Shown here piece by piece: positions 23,279 through 49,289 of a stretch of 64,000 nucleotides of DNA. The stretch is from assembly GCF_018919065.1 (NCBI RefSeq), contig NZ_JAHLQG010000043.1, forward strand, positions 124,001 through 188,000, written 5' to 3'. Below the pieces are notes generated by a model. That model had not been told where the DNA came from. It did no database searches and saw nothing but the letters and a program-made list of their open reading frames with translations. The stretch comes from Blautia sp. MSJ-9. GTDB taxonomy: Bacteria > Bacillota > Clostridia > Lachnospirales > Lachnospiraceae. The stretch's first letter is position 1; every line of letters begins with the position of its first letter. The position numbers and the translations under genes are program-made.

Positions 23279-23294
23279 TAACTTTCATATGTGA

Positions 23295-23344
23295 ACCCTT
23301 TGGTTTCCCTGAGAGTACTCCACGCGAAACCAAAGGGTACTTTT
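23295..23344 (+). terminator. Strong terminator after larC
   Basis: The 13-bp perfect stem ACCCTTTGGTTTC/GAAACCAAAGGGT (23295-23307 with 23326-23338) is followed by TTTT. It separates the lar genes from the LytTR cluster. Confidence 0.85.
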
Positions 23345-23347
23345 GTC

Positions 23348-23376
23348 TTGAAATAGAGTTGTAAGAGCTGTATACT
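23348..23376 (+). promoter_or_regulatory. Sigma-A promoter of the LytTR two-component genes
   Basis: TTGAAA (23348-23353), a 17-bp spacer and TATACT (23371-23376) lie just past the larC terminator. The start codon is 26 bp downstream of the -10 box. Confidence 0.65.
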
Positions 23377-23402
23377 GCATGTAGTATGAAGGGAGAAAAG
23401 GA

Positions 23403-24125
23403 ATGTTTTGCATTGGCATTTGCGATGATGATGAGGGTCTCTGCGGGGAACTGGAAAAAATGCTTTATGATTATGGAAAAGAGCATAAAATTCAGATGAA
23501 TATTGATATCTGGTATCAGGGAGAAAGCCTGTGCCGGTTCCTGAGAGAAAACAAGAAGATTCTTGATGTGTTATTTCTGGATATAGAATTACTGACAACA
23601 AATGGAATTGAAGTGGGACGTTTTATAAGAGAAGAACAGGAAAACATGGAAACTGCAATTGTTTACATTTCAGCGAACAGCAGTTATGCGATGGATCTAT
23701 TTCGTGTACAGCCTACAGATTTTCTGATCAAACCTTTAGACAAAATAAAAGTTGGGAATGTCATGAACAGGATTCAGAAAATTTCGGAAGTCAGAAAAGG
23801 TATTTTCGAGTACTTTGGCAGTGGATATTATTTCAAGGTGCTGTATAAAGATATTCTGTATTTCAGCAGTCAGAATAAAAAAGTGTATCTGGTTTTAAAA
23901 GACGGACAGAAAGAATTTAATGGCAAACTGAAAGAAATAGCAAAGAAAATTCCGGGAAATTTCATTCAGATTCATCAGTCGTATCTGATCAATTTTGATT
24001 ATATCGAAGAATGTTCTTATGAATCTGTGAAAATGAAAAACGGAGATACAATTCCAATCAGCCAGCCATATCGGAAATCAGTGAGAAAGCAACTGGCGGA
24101 ACGTGTGTGGAGGGACAGAGAGTAA
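23403..24125 (+). CDS. LytTR-family response regulator (AgrA-like)
   Basis: This 240-residue cytoplasmic regulator has a receiver domain (about 1-120) with the acidic pair in CDDD and phosphoacceptor D60 in VLFLDIEL, plus KPLDK with the conserved lysine. A LytTR DNA-binding domain follows at about 135-236 (YKDILYFSSQNKKVYLV, IQIHQSYLINFDYIEE). GGGAGAAAAGG precedes the start. The next gene, a sensor kinase, begins directly after its stop codon. LytTR regulators bind direct repeats two helical turns apart, and such a repeat lies upstream of the secreted-protein gene at 25676. Confidence 0.92.
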   Translation: MFCIGICDDDEGLCGELEKMLYDYGKEHKIQMNIDIWYQGESLCRFLRENKKILDVLFLDIELLTTNGIEVGRFIREEQENMETAIVYISANSSYAMDLFRVQPTDFLIKPLDKIKVGNVMNRIQKISEVRKGIFEYFGSGYYFKVLYKDILYFSSQNKKVYLVLKDGQKEFNGKLKEIAKKIPGNFIQIHQSYLINFDYIEECSYESVKMKNGDTIPISQPYRKSVRKQLAERVWRDRE

Positions 24126-25367
24126 ATGTTTGCGTTGATAACTACATTAAGCACGAATCTTTTGCGTACATATATAATCTATCGCTTTATGAGGTTGTTC
24201 TTTTGGACAGATATTGAGGAAAAGAAAAAAGAAAGAGCCTGTTATGTATTGTTTTTTGTTTTGACAGCAGTGGTATATCTGATATTTTGTTCGCCGGGTA
24301 TGAGTGTGATAACAAATATAGTGCTGATTTTTTTGATTACAGTGTGTTATGAAGGAGCATTGAAAAAGAAAATATTTGTGACACTACTTGTATATGGAAC
24401 TAATATGGGATGTGATTTAGTAGCTGTTCATTTACTGACAGATTATTCAATAACAGGGAAAGTCGGTGAATGTGCTGCGTATATAACTGTACTATTATTG
24501 CTGATTTGCGATGTTATTTCAGAAAAAATCTTGATTAAGAATAAAGGAGAAGATAAAACTCCGCATGGGATGATACTGGCGGTTATTTCAGCACTTTGTC
24601 TGGCAGAATTGCTTATTGTTGAACAGGAACTAAAAAATCGTATCCTGCTGGTGTTATTTGGATGTTGTGTTTTGGCAGTTGTATTATTGATTTTCTATTT
24701 ATATGATGTTCTGATAAGTGCGTATAAGAAACTGGAAGAACAATCTCTTATGGAAAAACAAATGCTCATTTATTCTCACCAGTTGGATGTGTTGATGCAA
24801 TCGGAAGAGAAAGTAAAAGCTCTACGCCATGATATGAAAAATCATCTGGGAGAACTTGCACTTATGGCTGGAAATCAGAATAATGAAGAAATTCGGAAAT
24901 ATATACAGGACATGGGGGAGTATATGCAGAACCAGTCTGAACTGGTCAGCTGTGGGAATAAGAATCTTGACAGTTTGCTGAATTATCTTCTGGGACAGGC
25001 AAAAAAGAAACTGAATCATGTAGAGTATGAGGTACGGGTACCATCTGATTTGTGTATATCAGCATTTGATCTGAATGTGATTTTGGGAAACCTGACAGAG
25101 AACGCAATAGAAGCAGCAGAACAGACGAAAGATAAATGGATGTCAGTGGATATATACTATGAAAAGGGCATGCTTTCCATGGAAATAAAAAACAGCTTTC
25201 AACATGAATTGGCTGTAGAGAAAAATAAATTATTGTCAACGAAGGAAGAAAAAGGACATGGCATTGGTCTTGCAAATGTCAGGAAGATGGTAGAGAAATA
25301 TCAGGGATTTATGGATGTTTCGAATACAAATCAGATTTTTACTGTAAAGGTAATGCTGTACTTATAA
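24126..25367 (+). CDS. GHKL sensor histidine kinase (AgrC-like)
   Basis: This 413-residue membrane kinase has an N-terminal half of about six hydrophobic helices (residues roughly 1-195) and a short linker. It then has the phosphoacceptor motif LRHDMKNHLGE (His about 235) and the GHKL ATPase domain (NVILGNLTENAIEAAEQ; GHGIGLANVRKMVEKY). The layout matches peptide-sensing AgrC-type kinases. No AgrB, AgrD or other signal-peptide gene is evident nearby, so the signal is unknown. It starts one base after the regulator's stop codon, so translation is probably coupled. A terminator follows. Confidence 0.9.
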   Translation: MFALITTLSTNLLRTYIIYRFMRLFFWTDIEEKKKERACYVLFFVLTAVVYLIFCSPGMSVITNIVLIFLITVCYEGALKKKIFVTLLVYGTNMGCDLVAVHLLTDYSITGKVGECAAYITVLLLLICDVISEKILIKNKGEDKTPHGMILAVISALCLAELLIVEQELKNRILLVLFGCCVLAVVLLIFYLYDVLISAYKKLEEQSLMEKQMLIYSHQLDVLMQSEEKVKALRHDMKNHLGELALMAGNQNNEEIRKYIQDMGEYMQNQSELVSCGNKNLDSLLNYLLGQAKKKLNHVEYEVRVPSDLCISAFDLNVILGNLTENAIEAAEQTKDKWMSVDIYYEKGMLSMEIKNSFQHELAVEKNKLLSTKEEKGHGIGLANVRKMVEKYQGFMDVSNTNQIFTVKVMLYL

Positions 25368-25384
25368 ATTATGTAGAATCTATG

Positions 25385-25424
25385 AAAGATAGTGTAGTGG
25401 TAGGACTGCGCTGTCTTTTATTTT
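25385..25424 (+). terminator. Terminator after the sensor kinase gene
   Basis: A 10-bp stem with two G-U pairs (25385-25394 with 25409-25418) is followed by TTTATTTT. It separates the two-component genes from the transporter genes. Confidence 0.6.
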
Positions 25425-25448
25425 GCAGAAAATTAGTCAAGAGGGAAA

Positions 25449-25563
25449 ATATTGTGAAAGAAAACCTTATAAAAAACCACAATATGTTCTGAAAAAACGA
25501 ATTTCGCCAATTTATATATGAATTTCGCCGTTTCAGAAAATTTTGCGATAAATATGTTATTAT
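25449..25563 (+). promoter_or_regulatory. Probable LytTR-controlled promoter with direct repeats
   Basis: GAATTTCGCC occurs twice, at 25499-25508 and 25520-25529, exactly 21 bp from start to start, which is the two-turn spacing known for LytTR regulators. A possible -10 box TATTAT (25558-25563) lies downstream with no recognisable -35 box, as expected for an activator-dependent promoter. An inverted repeat ATATTGTG/CACAATAT (25449-25456 with 25478-25485) lies upstream. Binding by the neighbouring regulator is inferred. Confidence 0.55.
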
Positions 25564-25621
25564 TCAAATACAAGGTAAGAAGAAATGAATATATCTGGAA
25601 CTGTAACACCGTAAGGAAGCA

Positions 25622-25662
25622 AAAAATGAGTTGTACAGAAAAGCCCTGTACAACTCATTTTT
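25622..25662 (+). promoter_or_regulatory. Perfect 17-bp hairpin abutting the ribosome site
   Basis: Residues 25622-25638 and 25646-25662 are perfectly complementary (arms AAAAATGAGTTGTACAG and its reverse complement) around a 7-nt loop. The 3' arm ends in five T, and AGGAGG follows two bases later. It looks like an intrinsic terminator placed between promoter and gene, that is, an attenuator. It also contains a 12-codon frame (MSCTEKPCTTHF, 25626-25664) with no clear ribosome site. Confidence 0.65.
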
Positions 25663-25675
25663 AGGAGGAATAGAT

Positions 25676-26677
25676 ATGAGAAAAAAAATACTATTAACGA
25701 TGATGTTGCTGACAGTTTGTGCTAGTGGAACTAATTCTATATTTGCAACTGAAAATGTGGAAAAAAACGAGATTGAAGTGTATGAAATATCACTTAAAAA
25801 ATTTGATTACAATAAGGTTTGTGAGTGGTTATTGGAAAAAGAACCACAGGAATGTAATATAATATCTCAGAAAAATGGAAGCCTTATTATAGAGTCAGAA
25901 GAAAGCAGTGTTTATGTTAATGAAGGGACGATAGAATATAAAAAAGATGATATGACATCAGATATAGAAACACTGTGTTTTTATTATATTTTACCTGGAT
26001 TAATAGACATAAATGAGTTTGTGAACGCTGATTCAGTAGAGATGGTAGATGACAGCGAAGATGAGAGAATAAAAAATCAAATAGAACATATCTGTGAATT
26101 TAAAGAAAATGAAACACTTCAGTTAATCCGTTCCTGTAAACTGAGCAAAGAGACTCTGGTGGAAGTATCAGAAAAATTGAAACAGTATGGTGAAGAAAAT
26201 ATAGATACATCTGCCTGGAACGCTGAAGAATATACAGGGTTGGAATATGAAATTTTAAAAGATGGAATTCCGGTTATGGGATCAGAAGAACCGACACAAG
26301 GATATTATCTGGACATACAACAGGCAATTCCGGCATATGTCAGAGTTTTAATGGGAGATGGAAAGTTAATAGGCGTTAGTATTCAGGAGATGTTTGAAGA
26401 GAAAAGTGTATATAGTACTCCGATTCTGTCGTCAGAAGAAGCTCTTGGGATATTACAGAAAGAAGATGAGGAAATAATTTCAGATAAAACCGGAGAAATT
26501 GAAGAAATAAAACTTGAGTATGTAATGATTCCGGATTGGACAACAGAAATTTCAAAACCAATAGAATTAAGACCATACTGGTGCATTATTAAAAATGTTG
26601 AGGAAGATGGTGAACAGTACACTACAGCCGATAGAATTAATGCTATAACAGGTGGAGATTTGTCATATGGCGAATAG
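25676..26677 (+). CDS. Secreted protein of unknown function in the LytTR/ABC cluster
   Basis: This 333-residue protein has a signal peptide (MRKKILLTMMLLTVCASGTNSIFATE, predicted cleavage near residue 25). The mature part is acidic with no membrane helix. Its end (LRPYWCIIKN, then TTADRINAITGGDLSYG) resembles the closing strand of PepSY- or YycI-like periplasmic domains, but this is weak. AGGAGG fixes the start at 25676; an upstream in-frame TTG lies inside a hairpin. The next gene overlaps it by 11 bp. It may sense or bind an extracellular ligand for the transporter or kinase; I do not know the family. Confidence 0.7.
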   Translation: MRKKILLTMMLLTVCASGTNSIFATENVEKNEIEVYEISLKKFDYNKVCEWLLEKEPQECNIISQKNGSLIIESEESSVYVNEGTIEYKKDDMTSDIETLCFYYILPGLIDINEFVNADSVEMVDDSEDERIKNQIEHICEFKENETLQLIRSCKLSKETLVEVSEKLKQYGEENIDTSAWNAEEYTGLEYEILKDGIPVMGSEEPTQGYYLDIQQAIPAYVRVLMGDGKLIGVSIQEMFEEKSVYSTPILSSEEALGILQKEDEEIISDKTGEIEEIKLEYVMIPDWTTEISKPIELRPYWCIIKNVEEDGEQYTTADRINAITGGDLSYGE

Positions 26678-27440
26678 GAAAATAATTATTTTATCAAAAT
26701 GTCTGATTTCCGCATTATTTGTGAGTTTTTGTATACCGGCAGACAGTTTGGATATTTTTATGGCAGCTATAAAAAACAGAAGTAATCTGGATATTCACTA
26801 TTTCTGGATGAATTCAATTATTTATGGTGGTATTTATGGATATTATTTTATCTATATATTAGCCGGAATGCCTTATGCAGACTCGTTTTGCTGTGAATAT
26901 TGTCAGGGCATTTGGCGATATCTTATAATGCGTATGGGAACAAAGAAATATGCTGTCAGGAAGTTTATAATAGCTTTTTGCCTGGGAGGACTAACAGCTT
27001 CGGGTGGTGGTTTGCTTTTTATAACTGCTTTAAAAAGTGTATTACCTTTATTTCAGAGTGGCAGAGCAATAGAGGTTACTTTTTTGCCATGTAGTGAAAT
27101 TTTGATAAAGAATCCGGAAAAATATTTTTTGATTATGTTATATATTATGCTTTTGGCAGGGGGAATGTGGACAACTATTAGTGTTTGTATTTCTGCATAT
27201 TGCCCTGTGAATTATTTTGTACATTTAATTCCTTTTATAGGCATTTTTTTATTAACAAGATTTAATTCTATGCTCCATTTACCTGATAAGTGGCGTTTAG
27301 ACTTTTGGCTTTGCGGAAGGGCAGGATTGGAGCAACCATATGTTTATATTTTACTGTTAACAGTCAGTGTTACTATTTTAACGAGTATATGTTGCTGGTT
27401 GTTTTATAAAAAAGTAAAGTGGAGAGTTTTAAATGAATGA
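26667..27440 (+). CDS. Membrane subunit of an ABC-type exporter (first permease)
   Basis: This 257-residue protein has about six hydrophobic segments (residues roughly 8-24, 45-65, 93-120, 148-172, 178-195 and 225-247) and no catalytic motif. This is consistent with an ABC-2-type permease half. The start at 26667 is an ATG preceded by GGTGGAG and lies inside the end of the secreted-protein gene (11-bp overlap). Its end overlaps the next gene by 8 bp. Codon use is strikingly A/T-rich compared with the housekeeping genes. Primary sequence resemblance to known permeases is low, so the role rests mainly on the ATPase two genes downstream. Confidence 0.65.
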   Translation: MANRKIIILSKCLISALFVSFCIPADSLDIFMAAIKNRSNLDIHYFWMNSIIYGGIYGYYFIYILAGMPYADSFCCEYCQGIWRYLIMRMGTKKYAVRKFIIAFCLGGLTASGGGLLFITALKSVLPLFQSGRAIEVTFLPCSEILIKNPEKYFLIMLYIMLLAGGMWTTISVCISAYCPVNYFVHLIPFIGIFLLTRFNSMLHLPDKWRLDFWLCGRAGLEQPYVYILLLTVSVTILTSICCWLFYKKVKWRVLNE

Positions 27441-28272
27441 GAGTTTATATAGAAGTATTATGGTGTGCAGATATAGATTAAAGGATAGATTTTTTAATAG
27501 AAGGTTATGGATAACAGGAAGTGTTTTTTCTGTTTTTTTATATATTGCTGAGGAGGGAGTACGCAAATTTTCTATTCAGACCGGGGAGAAAATCACACCC
27601 TGGATTTTTCCGTTTCTGACAAGTGACTGGATTTGTCAGATGCTGATTTCAGGATATTTTCTTTGGTTGATTACAGGATTTTGTGATAAAAAGGAATCTG
27701 ATAATTATGTGATTGCACGTGCCGGGAAAATCATATGGAAAACAGGAAGCTGTATTGCTATAATAGTTGCTGCTTTTTTATATACATTGAGTTTAGCAGT
27801 AGTATCAATCGCTGTTCTTTTTCCGCATGTAAAATTTTCATTAACATGGGGAAAAATATGGAAAACTTTAGCGGTAATAGATAAATCAAAGTATGATGTG
27901 CAGATAAATATTCTGCCTTCTATCAGCAGAAATAACTGTGCAGTGGAAGCATTTTTGAAAGCGGAAATACTTCAGCTTCTATGTATATGCTGGTTAGCGT
28001 TTCTTATGTATTTTATTTATGATTTATCAGAAAAAGTGATAGGAATTTATATCACATATGTTTTTATTTTTCTGGACGTTATGCTTACCAATACTATGTT
28101 GGAGAAATTTTATGTTTTTTCACCTTTAACGTTAGTTCAGCTTGGAAATTATTCGATAGAAACAGCAAAATACGGGATTAGTTTTGATTCTTCAATAAAG
28201 TTTTATTTGTTTGGTATTGTGATATTTGTATCAGGAATATTATTTCATGATTTTATAAAATGGAGAAAATAA
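27433..28272 (+). CDS. Membrane subunit of an ABC-type exporter (second permease)
   Basis: This 279-residue protein has about six hydrophobic segments (near residues 27-42, 68-85, 105-130, 178-200, 203-225 and 256-272). Between helices 3 and 4 is a polar loop of about 45 residues. GGAGAG lies upstream and the start overlaps the previous gene by 8 bp, so synthesis is probably coupled. With its partner and the ATPase it would form a heteromeric exporter, similar in layout to bacteriocin-immunity or peptide-resistance ABC systems. The family is not recognised from sequence. Confidence 0.65.
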   Translation: MNESLYRSIMVCRYRLKDRFFNRRLWITGSVFSVFLYIAEEGVRKFSIQTGEKITPWIFPFLTSDWICQMLISGYFLWLITGFCDKKESDNYVIARAGKIIWKTGSCIAIIVAAFLYTLSLAVVSIAVLFPHVKFSLTWGKIWKTLAVIDKSKYDVQINILPSISRNNCAVEAFLKAEILQLLCICWLAFLMYFIYDLSEKVIGIYITYVFIFLDVMLTNTMLEKFYVFSPLTLVQLGNYSIETAKYGISFDSSIKFYLFGIVIFVSGILFHDFIKWRK

Positions 28273-28273
28273 A

Positions 28274-28936
28274 TTGGGGAACATTATTGAAATAAAACAC
28301 TTAACGAAAAAGATAGAAAATCAGTTGATTCTCTCAGATATTAATTTATGTTTTGAAGAGGAACATATTTATGGAATTGTTGGACGCAATGGATCAGGAA
28401 AAACTGTGCTGCTAAAATGTATATGTGGCTTAATGGAAGCGACACAGGGAGAGGTGATTTTTAATGGAAAAAGATTGAAGAAAGATATGGAATACATAGA
28501 TCAGTTAGGGTTTCTGATTGAGCGTCCAGGATTTTTGGAAAAGCTTTCCGCATATGAGAATCTTAGATACATTGCATCCATTAAAAGAATTGCGGGAAAA
28601 AAAGAAATTGAGGAAAGTCTACGAAAAGTAAACCTTGATCCATGTGACAAGAAAAAGGTTGGAAAATACTCTTTGGGTATGAAACAACGGCTGGGGATAG
28701 CACAGGCTTTTATGGAAAATCCTGAAATTCTGATTTTAGATGAACCAACAAATGGTTTAGACGAATCCGGAGTAAAATTAATAAGAGAATTATTACTTGA
28801 TTTGAAGAAAAGAAGAAAAATTATTGTGATAGCCAGTCATTATCAGGAAGATATAGATTTATTATGTGATAAAGTATATGTGATTCAGAATGGAAAAATA
28901 TGTGAAAAGCCACATGAGAAATATTGGGAAGTTTGA
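28274..28936 (+). CDS. ABC transporter ATP-binding protein
   Basis: This 220-residue ATPase shows all key motifs: Walker A GRNGSGKT (37-44), the signature YSLGMKQR (132-139), Walker B ILILDEP (152-158), and the switch histidine in IASHYQED. It starts with TTG at 28274, one base after the preceding stop, with GGAGAAAATAAA upstream. The length suits a single-domain ATPase energising the two permeases before it. It is closest in style to CcmA/BcrA-type exporters for peptides or antibiotics. A strong terminator follows. Confidence 0.92.
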   Translation: MGNIIEIKHLTKKIENQLILSDINLCFEEEHIYGIVGRNGSGKTVLLKCICGLMEATQGEVIFNGKRLKKDMEYIDQLGFLIERPGFLEKLSAYENLRYIASIKRIAGKKEIEESLRKVNLDPCDKKKVGKYSLGMKQRLGIAQAFMENPEILILDEPTNGLDESGVKLIRELLLDLKKRRKIIVIASHYQEDIDLLCDKVYVIQNGKICEKPHEKYWEV

Positions 28937-28967
28937 TATGTATTATTTGAAAAAATAACAATGCAAA

Positions 28968-29030
28968 AAACAGCCATATATCTGAGTGAATATTTCAGTA
29001 TTCATCAAATGTATGTGGCTGTTTCTTTTT
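28968..29030. terminator. Terminator between the ABC cluster and the GH31 gene
   Basis: AAACAGCCA (28968-28976) pairs with TGGCTGTTT (29016-29024). CTTTTT follows on the plus strand and an A-run precedes, so it can serve both convergent units. Confidence 0.8.
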
Positions 29031-29079
29031 GTTTTTCTATTATTTCTGAGGTAACTGTTTTTACAGATATATGCTGGGA

Positions 29080-44544: not shown

Positions 44545-45144
44545 ATGAAACAGTATGACGGAATTAAAGATGAAGAATTAATATCACGTTTCAAAAACGG
44601 GGAATCAGAAATCCTTGACTATCTGATGGAGAAATACAAGAACATGGTCCGTAAGAAGGCAAGGACCATGTTCCTGATAGGCGGAGAGAATGATGACCTG
44701 ATACAGGAAGGTATGATCGGACTGTTCAAAGCAGTCCGCGACTACCAGCCAGACAAGGATGCAGCATTCCAGACATTTGCAGGCATATGCGTAGACAGAC
44801 AGATATATAACGCCATCCAGAGCTCCAACAGACAGAAACACCAGCCGCTGAACTCGTATATTTCCCTCAGCGAACAGGACGGAGAGAATGAAGAACATCT
44901 TGGCGACACCTGGGTAGAGAATCCCGAGTCGATCATCATCGACCAGGAAAATGTCCAGAGCCTGGAACAGGAGATCACCACCACCCTAAGTCCAATGGAA
45001 AATCAGGTTCTCGAATACTATCTTGCAGGAAACGGCTACGGAGAGATTGCCCGGATCATGGGAAAAACACCCAAATCCATAGACAACGCCCTCCAACGCA
45101 TCCGCACCAAGATCAAAGAACAACTGGAACAACTACAAAAATAA
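44545..45144 (+). CDS. sigH: RNA polymerase sigma-H factor
   Basis: This 199-residue sigma-70 family protein directs transition-state and early sporulation genes. Region 2 is seen at DDLIQEGMIGLFKAVRDYQPDKDAAFQTFAGICVDRQI (about 50-88) and region 4 at LSPMENQVLEYYLAGNGYGEIARIMGKTPKSIDNALQRI (about 149-188). Position after cysS-mrnC-rlmB matches the conserved sigH locus of Firmicutes. GGAAGG lies upstream; a TTG one codon earlier is an alternative start. Presence of sigH fits the Spo0A-type features further on and a spore-forming ancestry. Confidence 0.92.
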   Translation: MKQYDGIKDEELISRFKNGESEILDYLMEKYKNMVRKKARTMFLIGGENDDLIQEGMIGLFKAVRDYQPDKDAAFQTFAGICVDRQIYNAIQSSNRQKHQPLNSYISLSEQDGENEEHLGDTWVENPESIIIDQENVQSLEQEITTTLSPMENQVLEYYLAGNGYGEIARIMGKTPKSIDNALQRIRTKIKEQLEQLQK

Positions 45145-45207
45145 AATCATCAGAATATATTTTCTGTAAAAAATTTTCTACAAAATGAAAAAGTTAAAAA
45201 ATAGGGA

Positions 45208-45236
45208 TTGACAACACGAACAAGTTCTGGTAACAT
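45208..45236 (+). promoter_or_regulatory. Promoter of tRNA-Thr
   Basis: A perfect TTGACA (45208-45213), 17-bp spacer and TAACAT (45231-45236). The mature tRNA begins 32 bp after the -10 box. Confidence 0.75.
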
Positions 45237-45267
45237 ATCCAAATGTGAGCGGCAAGTCCGACACGAT

Positions 45268-45339
45268 GCTGATGTGGCTCAGAGGTAGAGCACTTCCTTG
45301 GTAAGGAAGGGGTCACGGGTTCAATTCCCGTCATCAGCT
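45268..45339 (+). tRNA. tRNA-Thr (anticodon GGT)
   Basis: A complete cloverleaf is visible: acceptor GCTGATG/CATCAGC, D stem GCTC/GAGC, anticodon stem CTTCC/GGAAG with loop TTGGTAA, and T arm with GGTTCAATTCC. The anticodon GGT reads ACC and ACU threonine codons. CCA is not encoded. A T run directly follows the gene and helps end transcription. Confidence 0.96.
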
Positions 45340-45735
45340 TTTTTTATTGCTAAAAATAAAGGATTACAAGTAGTCAAAAACAAAGACTGTTTGTGATCCT
45401 TTTTCTATTTAAAGATTTGCCGTTGTTGAATGGACTATTTGAGATAGCTTACTGTCAGAAGTGAAGGAATACTAGAAGTATACTTTTAAGGAAAATTATA
45501 AAATATAAAGATATATACAAAATGAAAGATATAATGTTTAAAGGCCTGCATATGTTGGTATATATAGAAAATATTCTAATGATGGTGGAAATTCTTACAA
45601 ATATGTAATACAATAGTGTAAGTAAAAATATTATATTTAATGATATTAGAAATAAAGTATAAATGGAAAAAAGTTAACTACAAGGAGCATGATGACAAGA
45701 TTTAATGATATCTTATAAAAAGAGAGGATAATAGT
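45340..45735. other. Gene-poor AT-rich stretch
   Basis: Directly after the tRNA, AAAGGATTACAAGTAGTC (45358 onwards) and TTTGTGATCCTTTTTC form a long hairpin with T run ending near 45408, probably the tRNA terminator. Beyond it I see only A/T-rich sequence with no credible frame up to the LRR pseudogene. Confidence 0.4.
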
Positions 45736-46105
45736 ATGAAGAGGACAGTATTGGCTTTTTTAGTTGCAAGTACAATGGTTGTAAATCCGTTCATTGTGGT
45801 GAATGCAGCAGATTTTTCAGATAGCGTAGGACAAGAAACAGACTTGTGCATTTACTCAGTGCCCGAATCTTGAGAATGTGACATTATCATCAAGCATAAG
45901 AAAGCTTGGAGCTAAAGCATTTTACCAGTGTACATCCATCAAGACTCTGAAGATTAATGGTTCTACTCTGGAATATGTTGGAAAGAAAGGACTTGCAGTT
46001 AATAAGTCAGTAACTCTGAAATTGCCGAAGAAATCTTACAGCACATATCAGAAGCTGATAAAAGCAAGTAGCATTTATGCTAATACAAAATTTGTAAAAT
46101 TCTAA
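45736..46105 (+). pseudogene. Broken BspA-type leucine-rich-repeat surface protein
   Basis: A signal peptide (MKRTVLAFLVASTMVVNPFIVV, cleavage after VNA) starts at 45736 and the frame stops at 45873. From about 45846 the next frame reads AFTQCPNLENVTLSSSIRKL and GAKAFYQCTSIKTLKING, the AF-C-L-V/I pattern of BspA-like leucine-rich repeats, to a stop at 46105. An out-of-frame deletion has thus joined the export signal to the last repeats of a larger secreted protein. Confidence 0.75.
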
Positions 46106-46185
46106 TACAAATATGTAATAGGAGCAAGGCCAGGGTGAATATTCTGGTCTTTCTTTCTGAAATATAATAAACTTGTAAAATGAGA

Positions 46186-46218
46186 AAAGCCCAAGGAGCT
46201 TGCCGCTCCGAGGGCTTT
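46186..46218. terminator. Hairpin terminator
   Basis: AAAGCCC/GGGCTTT (46186-46192 with 46212-46218) encloses GGAGC/GCTCC. AT-rich sequence flanks it on both sides, and it lies between convergent units. A weaker GGCCAG/CTGGTC hairpin with T-rich tail lies about 60 bp earlier. Confidence 0.65.
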
Positions 46219-46305
46219 CAGTTTTGACTTTTGCCAGATTATTATTTCTTTCAATTGGTATTATAACATATAAAAAATGGAGAGCAACAAGCTTGTAAAG
46301 TTTTG

Positions 46306-46536
46306 TTATGCAGAAGAAGCATAATCCATAATGAAAATCTTGCTTGCAATCTGCTCAAGACGATCTAAGATATCTTCAATTTTTTCAAGCACAGATGCAG
46401 TAAAAAATTCTTCTCCACATTGATCACATTTCATACATGGAACATTTTCAATAATAACATAGCAATTTTTCAGGTGTGCAAAGTATGTGGTTGTAGATTG
46501 TTCCATAGTACCATTTTTACAAGTTAGGCATCTCAT
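46306..46536 (-). CDS. YgiT-type zinc-finger antitoxin-like protein
   Basis: This 76-residue protein has two CxxC pairs (MRCLTCKNG and CMKCDQCGEEFF), the zinc finger seen in the N-terminal half of MqsA/YgiT antitoxins. It lacks the C-terminal HTH of full MqsA, but short versions are common next to DUF4258 genes. Its start overlaps the end of the upstream DUF4258 gene by 4 bp. The pair is read as toxin then antitoxin, as in mqsRA. Confidence 0.8.
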   Translation of the reverse strand: MRCLTCKNGTMEQSTTTYFAHLKNCYVIIENVPCMKCDQCGEEFFTASVLEKIEDILDRLEQIASKIFIMDYASSA

Positions 46537-46853
46537 TTTAAAGTCTCCTTTCTTGTTTTATAATCAGATTCCCATTTTTCCGGATCAGGGAAATATGCGG
46601 TGATGATCCGGCTGCCGGTTCCTTCATCGCTCATAACTACATGGATGATTTTATTATCCACAGAATAGCCGAAAATTAAACAACTGGGGAATGGATAATC
46701 ATCTGGATATTGTTCGATAATTTCACCATCCATAATGGCATGACGAATATCTTTTATCTTGATTCCTCTTTGGCGACAACGCTCGGAAGAATGTTGTGTC
46801 ATTAAAACTTTATCTTCAGTGTAGTAAGATTGTAGAGTTTTAATTTCTATCAT
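46533..46853 (-). CDS. DUF4258 putative toxin
   Basis: This 106-residue protein carries the DUF4258 pattern: MTQHSSERCRQRGIKIKDIRHAI, then IIEQYPDDYPFPSCLIFG, and IIHVVMSDEGTGSRIITAYFPDPEKW. Members are related in fold to RelE/MqsR-type mRNA interferases and pair with YgiT-type antitoxins. The His and Arg residues in the first motif are candidate catalytic residues. An inverted repeat 24-48 bp upstream of the start may be the operator. Toxin activity is inferred from family and context. Confidence 0.78.
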   Translation of the reverse strand: MIEIKTLQSYYTEDKVLMTQHSSERCRQRGIKIKDIRHAIMDGEIIEQYPDDYPFPSCLIFGYSVDNKIIHVVMSDEGTGSRIITAYFPDPEKWESDYKTRKETLK

Positions 46854-46876
46854 AATGACAATATCCCTTCTTTGGA

Positions 46877-46901
46877 TTTACAGTTATATATGTACTGTAA
46901 A
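46877..46901. promoter_or_regulatory. Palindromic operator candidate of the toxin-antitoxin pair
   Basis: TTTACAGT (46877-46884) and ACTGTAAA (46894-46901) are perfect inverted arms separated by 9 bp, just upstream of the DUF4258 gene. Confidence 0.5.
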
Positions 46902-47022
46902 TAATATTATAACTTAGCTATCCGGAAAATTCAACAGACGCCAATACCCTGAACTGGAAGTTTAAACGCCAAATATTGAGCTTTTGAGCATAAAATAAGG
47001 CTTATCACTATAGTGGAAACGG

Positions 47023-48902: not shown

Positions 48903-49289
48903 TTATTCTTCTGATTCAGATGCAGCGTCAATAGTTTCTTCAAAATGAGATGGCTCATCAGCGTCTTCTGCATCTTCAGCTTCTTCCTCTGCATCTTTGA
49001 TTTCAACTTCTGTAGCTGTATCCTTAGTTTCTGAAGTTTCGTCCTCAGCCTGCTCACCAGCGTGTTCTTCCCATGCCTGGAAATCTTCAGCAACTTCTTC
49101 AGCTTCAGTACTTTCCTCAGCTTTTTCTTCTTTTTCATCATTCAGATCAAAATCATCAAAATCGTCTTCAAAATCGAAGTCTTCCTTGCAGGAATTTTTC
49201 TTAGCAACAAGTGCAGCTATAGCACCTGCAGCAGCTGCTGTAAGAGCACCTACTGCTACAAAACCCCAATATTTATTAATTTTAGCCAT
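48903..49289 (-). CDS. Single-pass membrane protein with a highly acidic tail (128 aa)
   Basis: I do not recognise a named family. After MAKINKYWG comes one Ala/Gly-rich membrane helix (about residues 8-29) and then KKNSCKED. About 95 residues follow that are dominated by Glu, Asp and Ala (EDDFDDFDLNDEKEEKAEES and similar), probably disordered. Charge distribution suggests the N-terminus outside and the tail in the cytoplasm, but this is uncertain. AAAGGAG is seen upstream. The tail is low-complexity, so length may vary between strains. Confidence 0.7.
   Translation of the reverse strand: MAKINKYWGFVAVGALTAAAAGAIAALVAKKNSCKEDFDFEDDFDDFDLNDEKEEKAEESTEAEEVAEDFQAWEEHAGEQAEDETSETKDTATEVEIKDAEEEAEDAEDADEPSHFEETIDAASESEE

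Follow-up and report, generated by a model that had tools for sequence, protein, structure and literature searches.

The subject of this study was a 64,000-nucleotide stretch of DNA from Blautia sp. MSJ-9 (contig NZ_JAHLQG010000043.1, positions 124,001–188,000), referred to here as the window, in which an AT-rich island of six genes lies between larC and a glucosidase gene. These genes encode a LytTR response regulator, an AgrC-like sensor kinase and, 3' of a putative LytTR box, a cassette consisting of a secreted acidic protein (SEC), two permeases (PA and PB) and an ABC ATPase. With moderate confidence, we propose that the island derives from an agr-controlled bacteriocin-like system as an immunity-only version, possibly one that eavesdrops.

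In the proposed mechanism, an autoinducing peptide from outside would bind the AgrC-like kinase, which would phosphorylate the LytTR regulator; the regulator would then bind the paired GAATTTCGC box and switch on the SEC-PA-PB-ATPase operon. SEC, located outside the membrane, would bind, or shield the cell against, a small secreted protein (SSP), probably β-rich and antibacterial, and the PA/PB/ATPase pump would clear it, a division of labor akin to that of the LanI lipoprotein and LanFEG. We infer that the SSPs are toxic and that the cassette protects against them. In complete relatives, a locus of this kind additionally encodes agrD, an SSP and agrB; since these genes are missing here, the strain would hear and survive its neighbors while making neither signal nor toxin.

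Anatomy of the island

All six genes are open and on the same (+) strand. The features, with positions in the window, are as follows:

23283..28949, no strand: the island, being the part that the relative G312 lacks between larC and the glucosidase gene (blastn)
23290..23352, +: hairpin in the gap from larC to the regulator gene, with a T-rich tail (-22.2 kcal/mol, z -4.2)
23403..24125, +: AgrA-like type of response regulator, carrying a LytTR DNA-binding domain (PF00072 2.4e-10; PF04397 4.9e-22)
24126..25367, +: AgrC-like sensor kinase, GHKL ATPase (PF14501 1.1e-21; six transmembrane segments; RHDMKNHL motif)
25499..25529, +: putative LytTR box, GAATTTCGCC repeated with a 21-bp period, in a stretch kept in three G359 copies
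25618..25668, +: perfect 17-bp hairpin directly 5' of the SEC ribosome-binding site, attenuator-like (-22.4 kcal/mol, z -6.5)
25676..26677, +: SEC, secreted acidic protein with a YycH/YycI/PepSY-type fold (best start at 25676)
26667..27440, +: PA, permease (five transmembrane segments by hydropathy)
27433..28272, +: PB, permease (four transmembrane segments by crude hydropathy count, mostly five to six in relatives; order conserved)
28274..28936, +: ABC ATPase with GRNGSGKT, LGMKQR and LDEPT motifs and Glu at the Q-loop position (PF00005 2e-32)
28957..29040, +: hairpin 3' of the ATPase gene (-27.3 kcal/mol, z -5.9), its sequence also present at the empty site

The original prediction, made from the sequence alone, had named the same six products, and Pfam matches were obtained for the regulator, the kinase and the ATPase. 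It had also placed the genes in two units between strong terminators. None of the three hairpins was listed by an automatic terminator scan with a loop limit of 8 bases, and all three were revealed by folding.

Complete loci in relatives and the repeat box

The fullest gene order observed was regulator, kinase, repeats, agrD, SSP, cassette and agrB. Three loci (L154, L159 and L160) carry a kinase, direct repeats with a 22-bp period, an agrD-like open reading frame (ORF) recognized by eye, an SSP gene, SEC (in two frames in L159), PA, PB and the ATPase, and a fourth, L158, follows the same order up to SEC, where its contig ends. A downstream agrB was present in L154 and L160, and the regulator is whole in L158 (40% identical to that of the window) and partial in the other three. 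In L083, the regulator and kinase are accompanied by an agrD-like ORF, agrB, an SSP gene and the cassette. Pfam confirmed AgrB in all 14 candidates picked near related loci, three of which are incomplete.

Read directly from the sequence, the window follows the order of these complete loci, with regulator, kinase, box and then cassette, and agrD, SSP and agrB are missing. A search of the window's genome, an assembly that is 84% complete, gave no AgrB. No AgrD-like or SSP-like ORF was seen among the eight ORFs of at least 20 codons that were judged by eye in positions 25365–25700, and no SSP-like ORF was seen beside the window cassette. The earlier statement that no signal peptide gene is present stood for the window and did not extend to relatives with the same regulator pair, which have agrD-like ORFs and agrB at this place.

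The box 5' of the transporter genes comprises two GAATTTCGC repeats, 21 bp apart. Searching 64 genomes of the genus for this pattern with up to three mismatches returned six sites in four genomes, and the reversed pattern used as a control returned none. Five of the six sites are directly 3' of a kinase of the AgrC-like kind; the sixth is the third of the copies in G359. That genome holds, in a region designated L124 (G359:C1:1219500-1235500), an interrupted regulator, kinase copies 79% and 99% identical to that of the window, a piece of a transposase and three boxes with three cargoes. The stretch following the kinase is conserved there through window position 25595, both GAATTTCGC repeats included. 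The first box is followed by an agrD-like ORF (recognized by eye, with an uncertain start codon) and then by agrB (PF04647 2.3e-31, profile positions 13–143 of 185); the second is 3' of the 99% identical kinase copy and 5' of a DUF2298 membrane protein; and the third is 5' of a secreted protein with a peptidoglycan-binding domain (L124 12813-13406). In G334, where the kinase before the box is 55% identical, the genes after it are an agrD-like ORF, an incomplete agrB and then an ABC cassette, so that agrD/agrB-like signal genes follow the box in two relatives; in G339, it comes after a 49% identical kinase, with a secreted protein next. The window regulator itself shares 65% identity with those of L131 and L132. 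Because the box recurs just after kinases of this kind, the data support, without proving, that the window regulator acts through it, and we regard its function as putative.

Recurrence of the cassette and linkage to small secreted proteins

A pattern scan of genome contigs with PA alone returned nothing; an alignment of SEC then gave 33 loci. The PA profile was present in 80 of 299 genomes of the family. For the cassette survey, 60 PA genes in 58 fetched loci were considered. The original prediction had proposed checking whether the secreted protein and the permeases occur together, and they do: a SEC-like gene was directly 5' of PA in 48 of the 60 cases (49 by a size rule, L039 being a LytTR gene), 45 of these with a start like that of a secreted protein and 38 with a match to the SEC profile. 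Within the four genes after PA, PB was found in 47 and the ATPase in 53.

Many of the relatives have an SSP gene directly 5' of SEC; it is about 100–170 codons long, its product starts like a signal peptide, and the end is frequently of a type such as GRFAP or GRWTP. Of 60 cassettes, 21 have a small gene for a Sec-secreted protein within the 500 bp upstream of SEC. After exclusion of L083–L086 and L088, which had been fetched via an SSP match, such a gene was upstream in 16 of 54 cassettes; of 195 control genes, 2 had one (Fisher test, p 3.6e-10). The converse test, in which a profile of 15 SSP sequences was run against the 64 genus genomes, yielded 30 rows in 12 genomes; seven were seeds, three were short matches in long frames, and every one of the other 20 was in a cluster with SEC genes (L031 and L088 included). 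Of ten regions, L153–L162, eight have the order SSP-SEC-PA-PB-ATPase, the remaining two being L158, with its contig end after SEC, and L161, with the SSP 3' of the SEC gene. The single profile row from the window's own genome (G000:C38, E 1.8e-4), one of the three short matches, is within a 264-residue frame and was judged doubtful. The function that had been called unknown can therefore be narrowed to a recurring four-gene unit that is often 3' of a small Sec-secreted protein.

Among 24 SSPs scanned in Pfam, that of L120 matched DUF2712 (1.1e-34) and that of L101 a peptidoglycan-binding domain (1.4e-8); the others had no match at a cut-off. The L120 gene (1990-2436) is a small secreted gene near an ABC cassette, a linkage that suggests a role for the uncharacterized DUF2712 family. 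The L101 gene (7499-7969, - strand) places its domain in a secreted protein at the SSP position.

Further arrangements were recorded around related cassettes. In L057 (11096-17268), a regulator (49%) and a kinase (33% identical to that of the window) are 5' of a second cassette, of SEC-PA-PB-ATPase-like make-up, that includes an additional membrane protein. In L066 (1448-5051), a SEC gene, agrB and a kinase stand together, and no PA was detected in the listed part. By size and sequence reading, some other cassette-adjacent regulators look like BlaI together with a BlaR1/M56-type protein.

Proteins of the cassette

Without its first 25 residues, SEC has an isoelectric point of 4.2. SEC, PA and PB reached no curated cut-off in Pfam or NCBIfam, in keeping with the permeases having been described as poorly recognizable, and PA (257 residues) and PB (279 residues) had no FtsX match in Pfam. 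The YycH/YycI fold was assigned to SEC, with PDB 5coz (EUBREC_2869) recovered by both a sequence profile and VIA-align; 5coz was absent among the 50 Foldseek matches listed. The best NCBIfam match of the ATPase was TIGR03740, lantibiotic protection (5.6e-60, 202.8 bits, cut-off 309.75). A Glu at the Q-loop position (the E-loop), which we take to be a trait of LanF and BcrA, was present in 65 of 69 distinct cassette ATPases, the window sequence being LIERPGF. An ATPase nearest to those of lantibiotic protection fits a cell-wall-active agent, as do the BlaI/BlaR1-like neighbors, since regulators of the BlaI and BlaR1/M56-like kind beside some cassettes suggest cell-wall stress. With the ATPase below the cut-off and the permeases unmatched, no closely similar, characterized bacteriocin-immunity or bacitracin-resistance system, which would have refuted the original prediction, was found in the libraries searched. 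The resemblance to a peptide-sensing immunity module is well supported.

An anti-phage defense function was rejected: PADLOC was blank for the five other island genes, and the matches of the ATPase were to the ATPases of various systems, mad3 being the best (3.4e-29), a result put down to general ATPase similarity.

Insertion site, composition and hairpins

The flanking larC and glucosidase genes were searched for in 65 genomes, including the window's own. In G312, larC is 93% identical (residues 155–517) and the glucosidase gene 98%, and the two are about 175 bp apart with no island between them. When the window was compared with L123 by blastn, the left match stopped at 23282 and the right match resumed at 28950; in G312 the flank matches end at 959495 and start at 959672. 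Acquisition of the island by transfer, as had been suggested from base composition, is thus well supported, since the site is empty in a close relative. In G359 (larC 92% identical over residues 155–517, glucosidase 98%), 11.9 kb occupy the same site; the regulator-kinase region there is 89% identical in DNA to that of the window, with an interrupted regulator frame, and is followed by other cargo. The same chromosomal site in three close relatives is therefore empty (G312), filled by an agr module with other cargo (G359) or filled by the immunity cassette (window). A plasmid origin was rejected: 29 plasmid records matched, none over more than 80% of the query; for the 20 records that were listed, the match was confined to short stretches of the ATPase.

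The island differs from its neighbors in composition, as originally noted (GC content per kb of 0.30–0.37 versus 0.40–0.45). The GC content at third codon positions (GC3) is 0.26–0.27 in the four cassette genes, the mean over 48 ORFs of the window being 0.40 (standard deviation 0.076). The values for the regulator and kinase genes are 0.386 and 0.343, respectively, which places the strong skew in the cassette half of the island. The internal 17-bp hairpin had no copy elsewhere among the 64 genus genomes with up to three mismatches, and its single occurrence, in the window's genome, led us to reject a repeated mobile element. It could be an attenuator, or it could be an insertion scar of the cassette, because the similarity to G359 stops near 25595.

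Elsewhere in the window, positions 45001–47000 are AT-rich (GC 0.34) and adjoin a tRNA-Thr gene (45268-45339), a possible second island, and a 128-residue ORF at 48903-49289 (- strand) has a GC3 of 0.194.

Alternative explanations

Three other explanations were weighed. The cassette might provide resistance to exogenous lantibiotics or other cell-wall-active peptides by means of a LanFEG/BcrAB-like pump induced by a peptide-sensing two-component system, with no tie to SSPs. The TIGR03740 match, the Glu at the Q-loop position and the failure to see an SSP-like ORF beside the window cassette all favor this idea, which we nevertheless consider unlikely, as the ATPase is below the curated cut-off, the lantibiotic permease models were unmatched by PA and PB, and the cassette family is strongly linked to SSPs. 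That same linkage, together with the agrD-like ORFs and agrB directly linked in relatives, could speak for a production module, in which the ABC genes serve to export or process a peptide (the signal, the SSP or some other) and SEC assists in secretion or maturation. However, AgrB itself exports AgrD products, the SSP N-termini are signal-peptide-like and need no dedicated exporter, the nearest subfamily of the ATPase is one of protection, and the window retains its cassette though neither agrB nor a convincing SSP was found; a production role is hence quite improbable. Slightly more improbable still is a Bce-like envelope-stress circuit, in which SEC would be an accessory sensor or brake of the kinase (as YycH/YycI for WalK) and the pump a flux sensor. 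The YycH/YycI fold of SEC agrees with it, but SEC stays with the pump where the adjacent regulator reads as BlaI/M56-like, ECF-like or unrecognizable, and PA and PB had no FtsX-type match.

Several observations weigh against our own proposal of an immunity-only derivative. The kinases of L154, L158, L159 and L160 are only 34–35% identical to that of the window, which makes these the same kind of locus with a different gene set; the scan for the exact box pattern of the window returned none of the complete SSP loci, which have a related AATTTTGACA repeat, and L153 had no repeats by the same scan. The internal hairpin would impede transcription from the box promoter. PA lacks a SEC-like gene directly upstream in 12 of 60 cases, the distant cassettes L108, L111, L117 and L121 differ in make-up, and no small secreted gene was detected upstream in 38 of 54 cassettes, so that the pairing is not universal or the SSPs are too diverse for a crude test. 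The ATPase falls short of the TIGR03740 cut-off, and no LanE or LanG model was matched by PA or PB (none in NCBIfam, none at cut-off in Pfam). The structure model of an SSP had a pLDDT of 54.5, and comparing it with the PDB gave nothing at E ≤0.001; with a best E of 0.039 and such low model confidence, the fold search was unusable as evidence. Finally, as the window genome is 84% complete, agrB, agrD or an SSP gene could be in the missing sequence. The original observation was confirmed and its interpretation partly supported.

A broader proposal is offered tentatively, and we hold it with less confidence than that for the island: the Lachnospiraceae may possess a large, undescribed agr-type-controlled class in which a hypervariable Sec-secreted SSP kills competitors, a YycH-fold protein and a two-permease ABC pump protect the producer, and islands at exchange sites of the larC/glucosidase type spread versions made of immunity plus receptor, which eavesdrop on the signal peptide of neighbors that make the toxin. 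If true, this would be a warfare-and-immunity system widespread in gut Lachnospiraceae, to judge from the PA profile, and tied to peptide quorum sensing, most of its parts being without an assigned function in the family libraries scanned. Because three relatives differ at one site, which is empty, occupied by an agr module and different cargo, or occupied by the immunity cassette, immunity-only cheating and eavesdropping in gut commensals become directly testable.

Comparison with known systems

The window resembles agr (AgrBDCA) in its LytTR regulator and its GHKL, six-transmembrane, AgrC-type kinase, and in the direct repeats that precede the operon about two helical turns apart, the putative box (21 bp in the window and G359, 22 bp in L154, L158, L159 and L160); in relatives, an agrD-like ORF and agrB stand beside the same kind of kinase. 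It differs in that agrB and agrD were not found in the window, the box precedes an ABC cassette, and the regulator scored 41.2 against a cut-off of 400 with the NCBIfam AgrA equivalog. LanI/LanFEG systems combine an extracellular protein with a pair of small permeases and a single ATPase that has a Glu at the Q-loop position, a set of parts that the window cassette shares, including this Glu. The differences are the ATPase score and unmatched permeases given above, the YycH/YycI fold of SEC and the linkage of the cassettes to small Sec-secreted proteins. Unlike in BceAB-type resistance, a large FtsX-type permease was not found, PA and PB being of 257 and 279 residues. The structural relative of SEC, EUBREC_2869 of Eubacterium rectale (PDB 5coz), is an uncharacterized protein.

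Mediterrocin of Mediterraneibacter gnavus, a small Sec-secreted protein of the lactococcin 972 family, is a bacteriocin whose cluster encodes an ABC ATPase and a seven-transmembrane DUF1430 protein as putative immunity protein (PMC12345188). The likeness is a small Sec-secreted protein from a member of the Lachnospiraceae together with an ABC ATPase, and the contrast is that PA and PB have no DUF1430-type match. Nor did any of the 24 SSPs match the lactococcin 972 family in Pfam (nine were also scanned in NCBIfam). A literature search returned no papers for DUF2712, for EUBREC_2869 or for the E-loop combined with LanF. Agr-type regulation and ABC immunity are already known; among the literature matches listed, which were the top of longer lists, none described the family of cassettes, the SSPs that accompany it or the immunity-only island.

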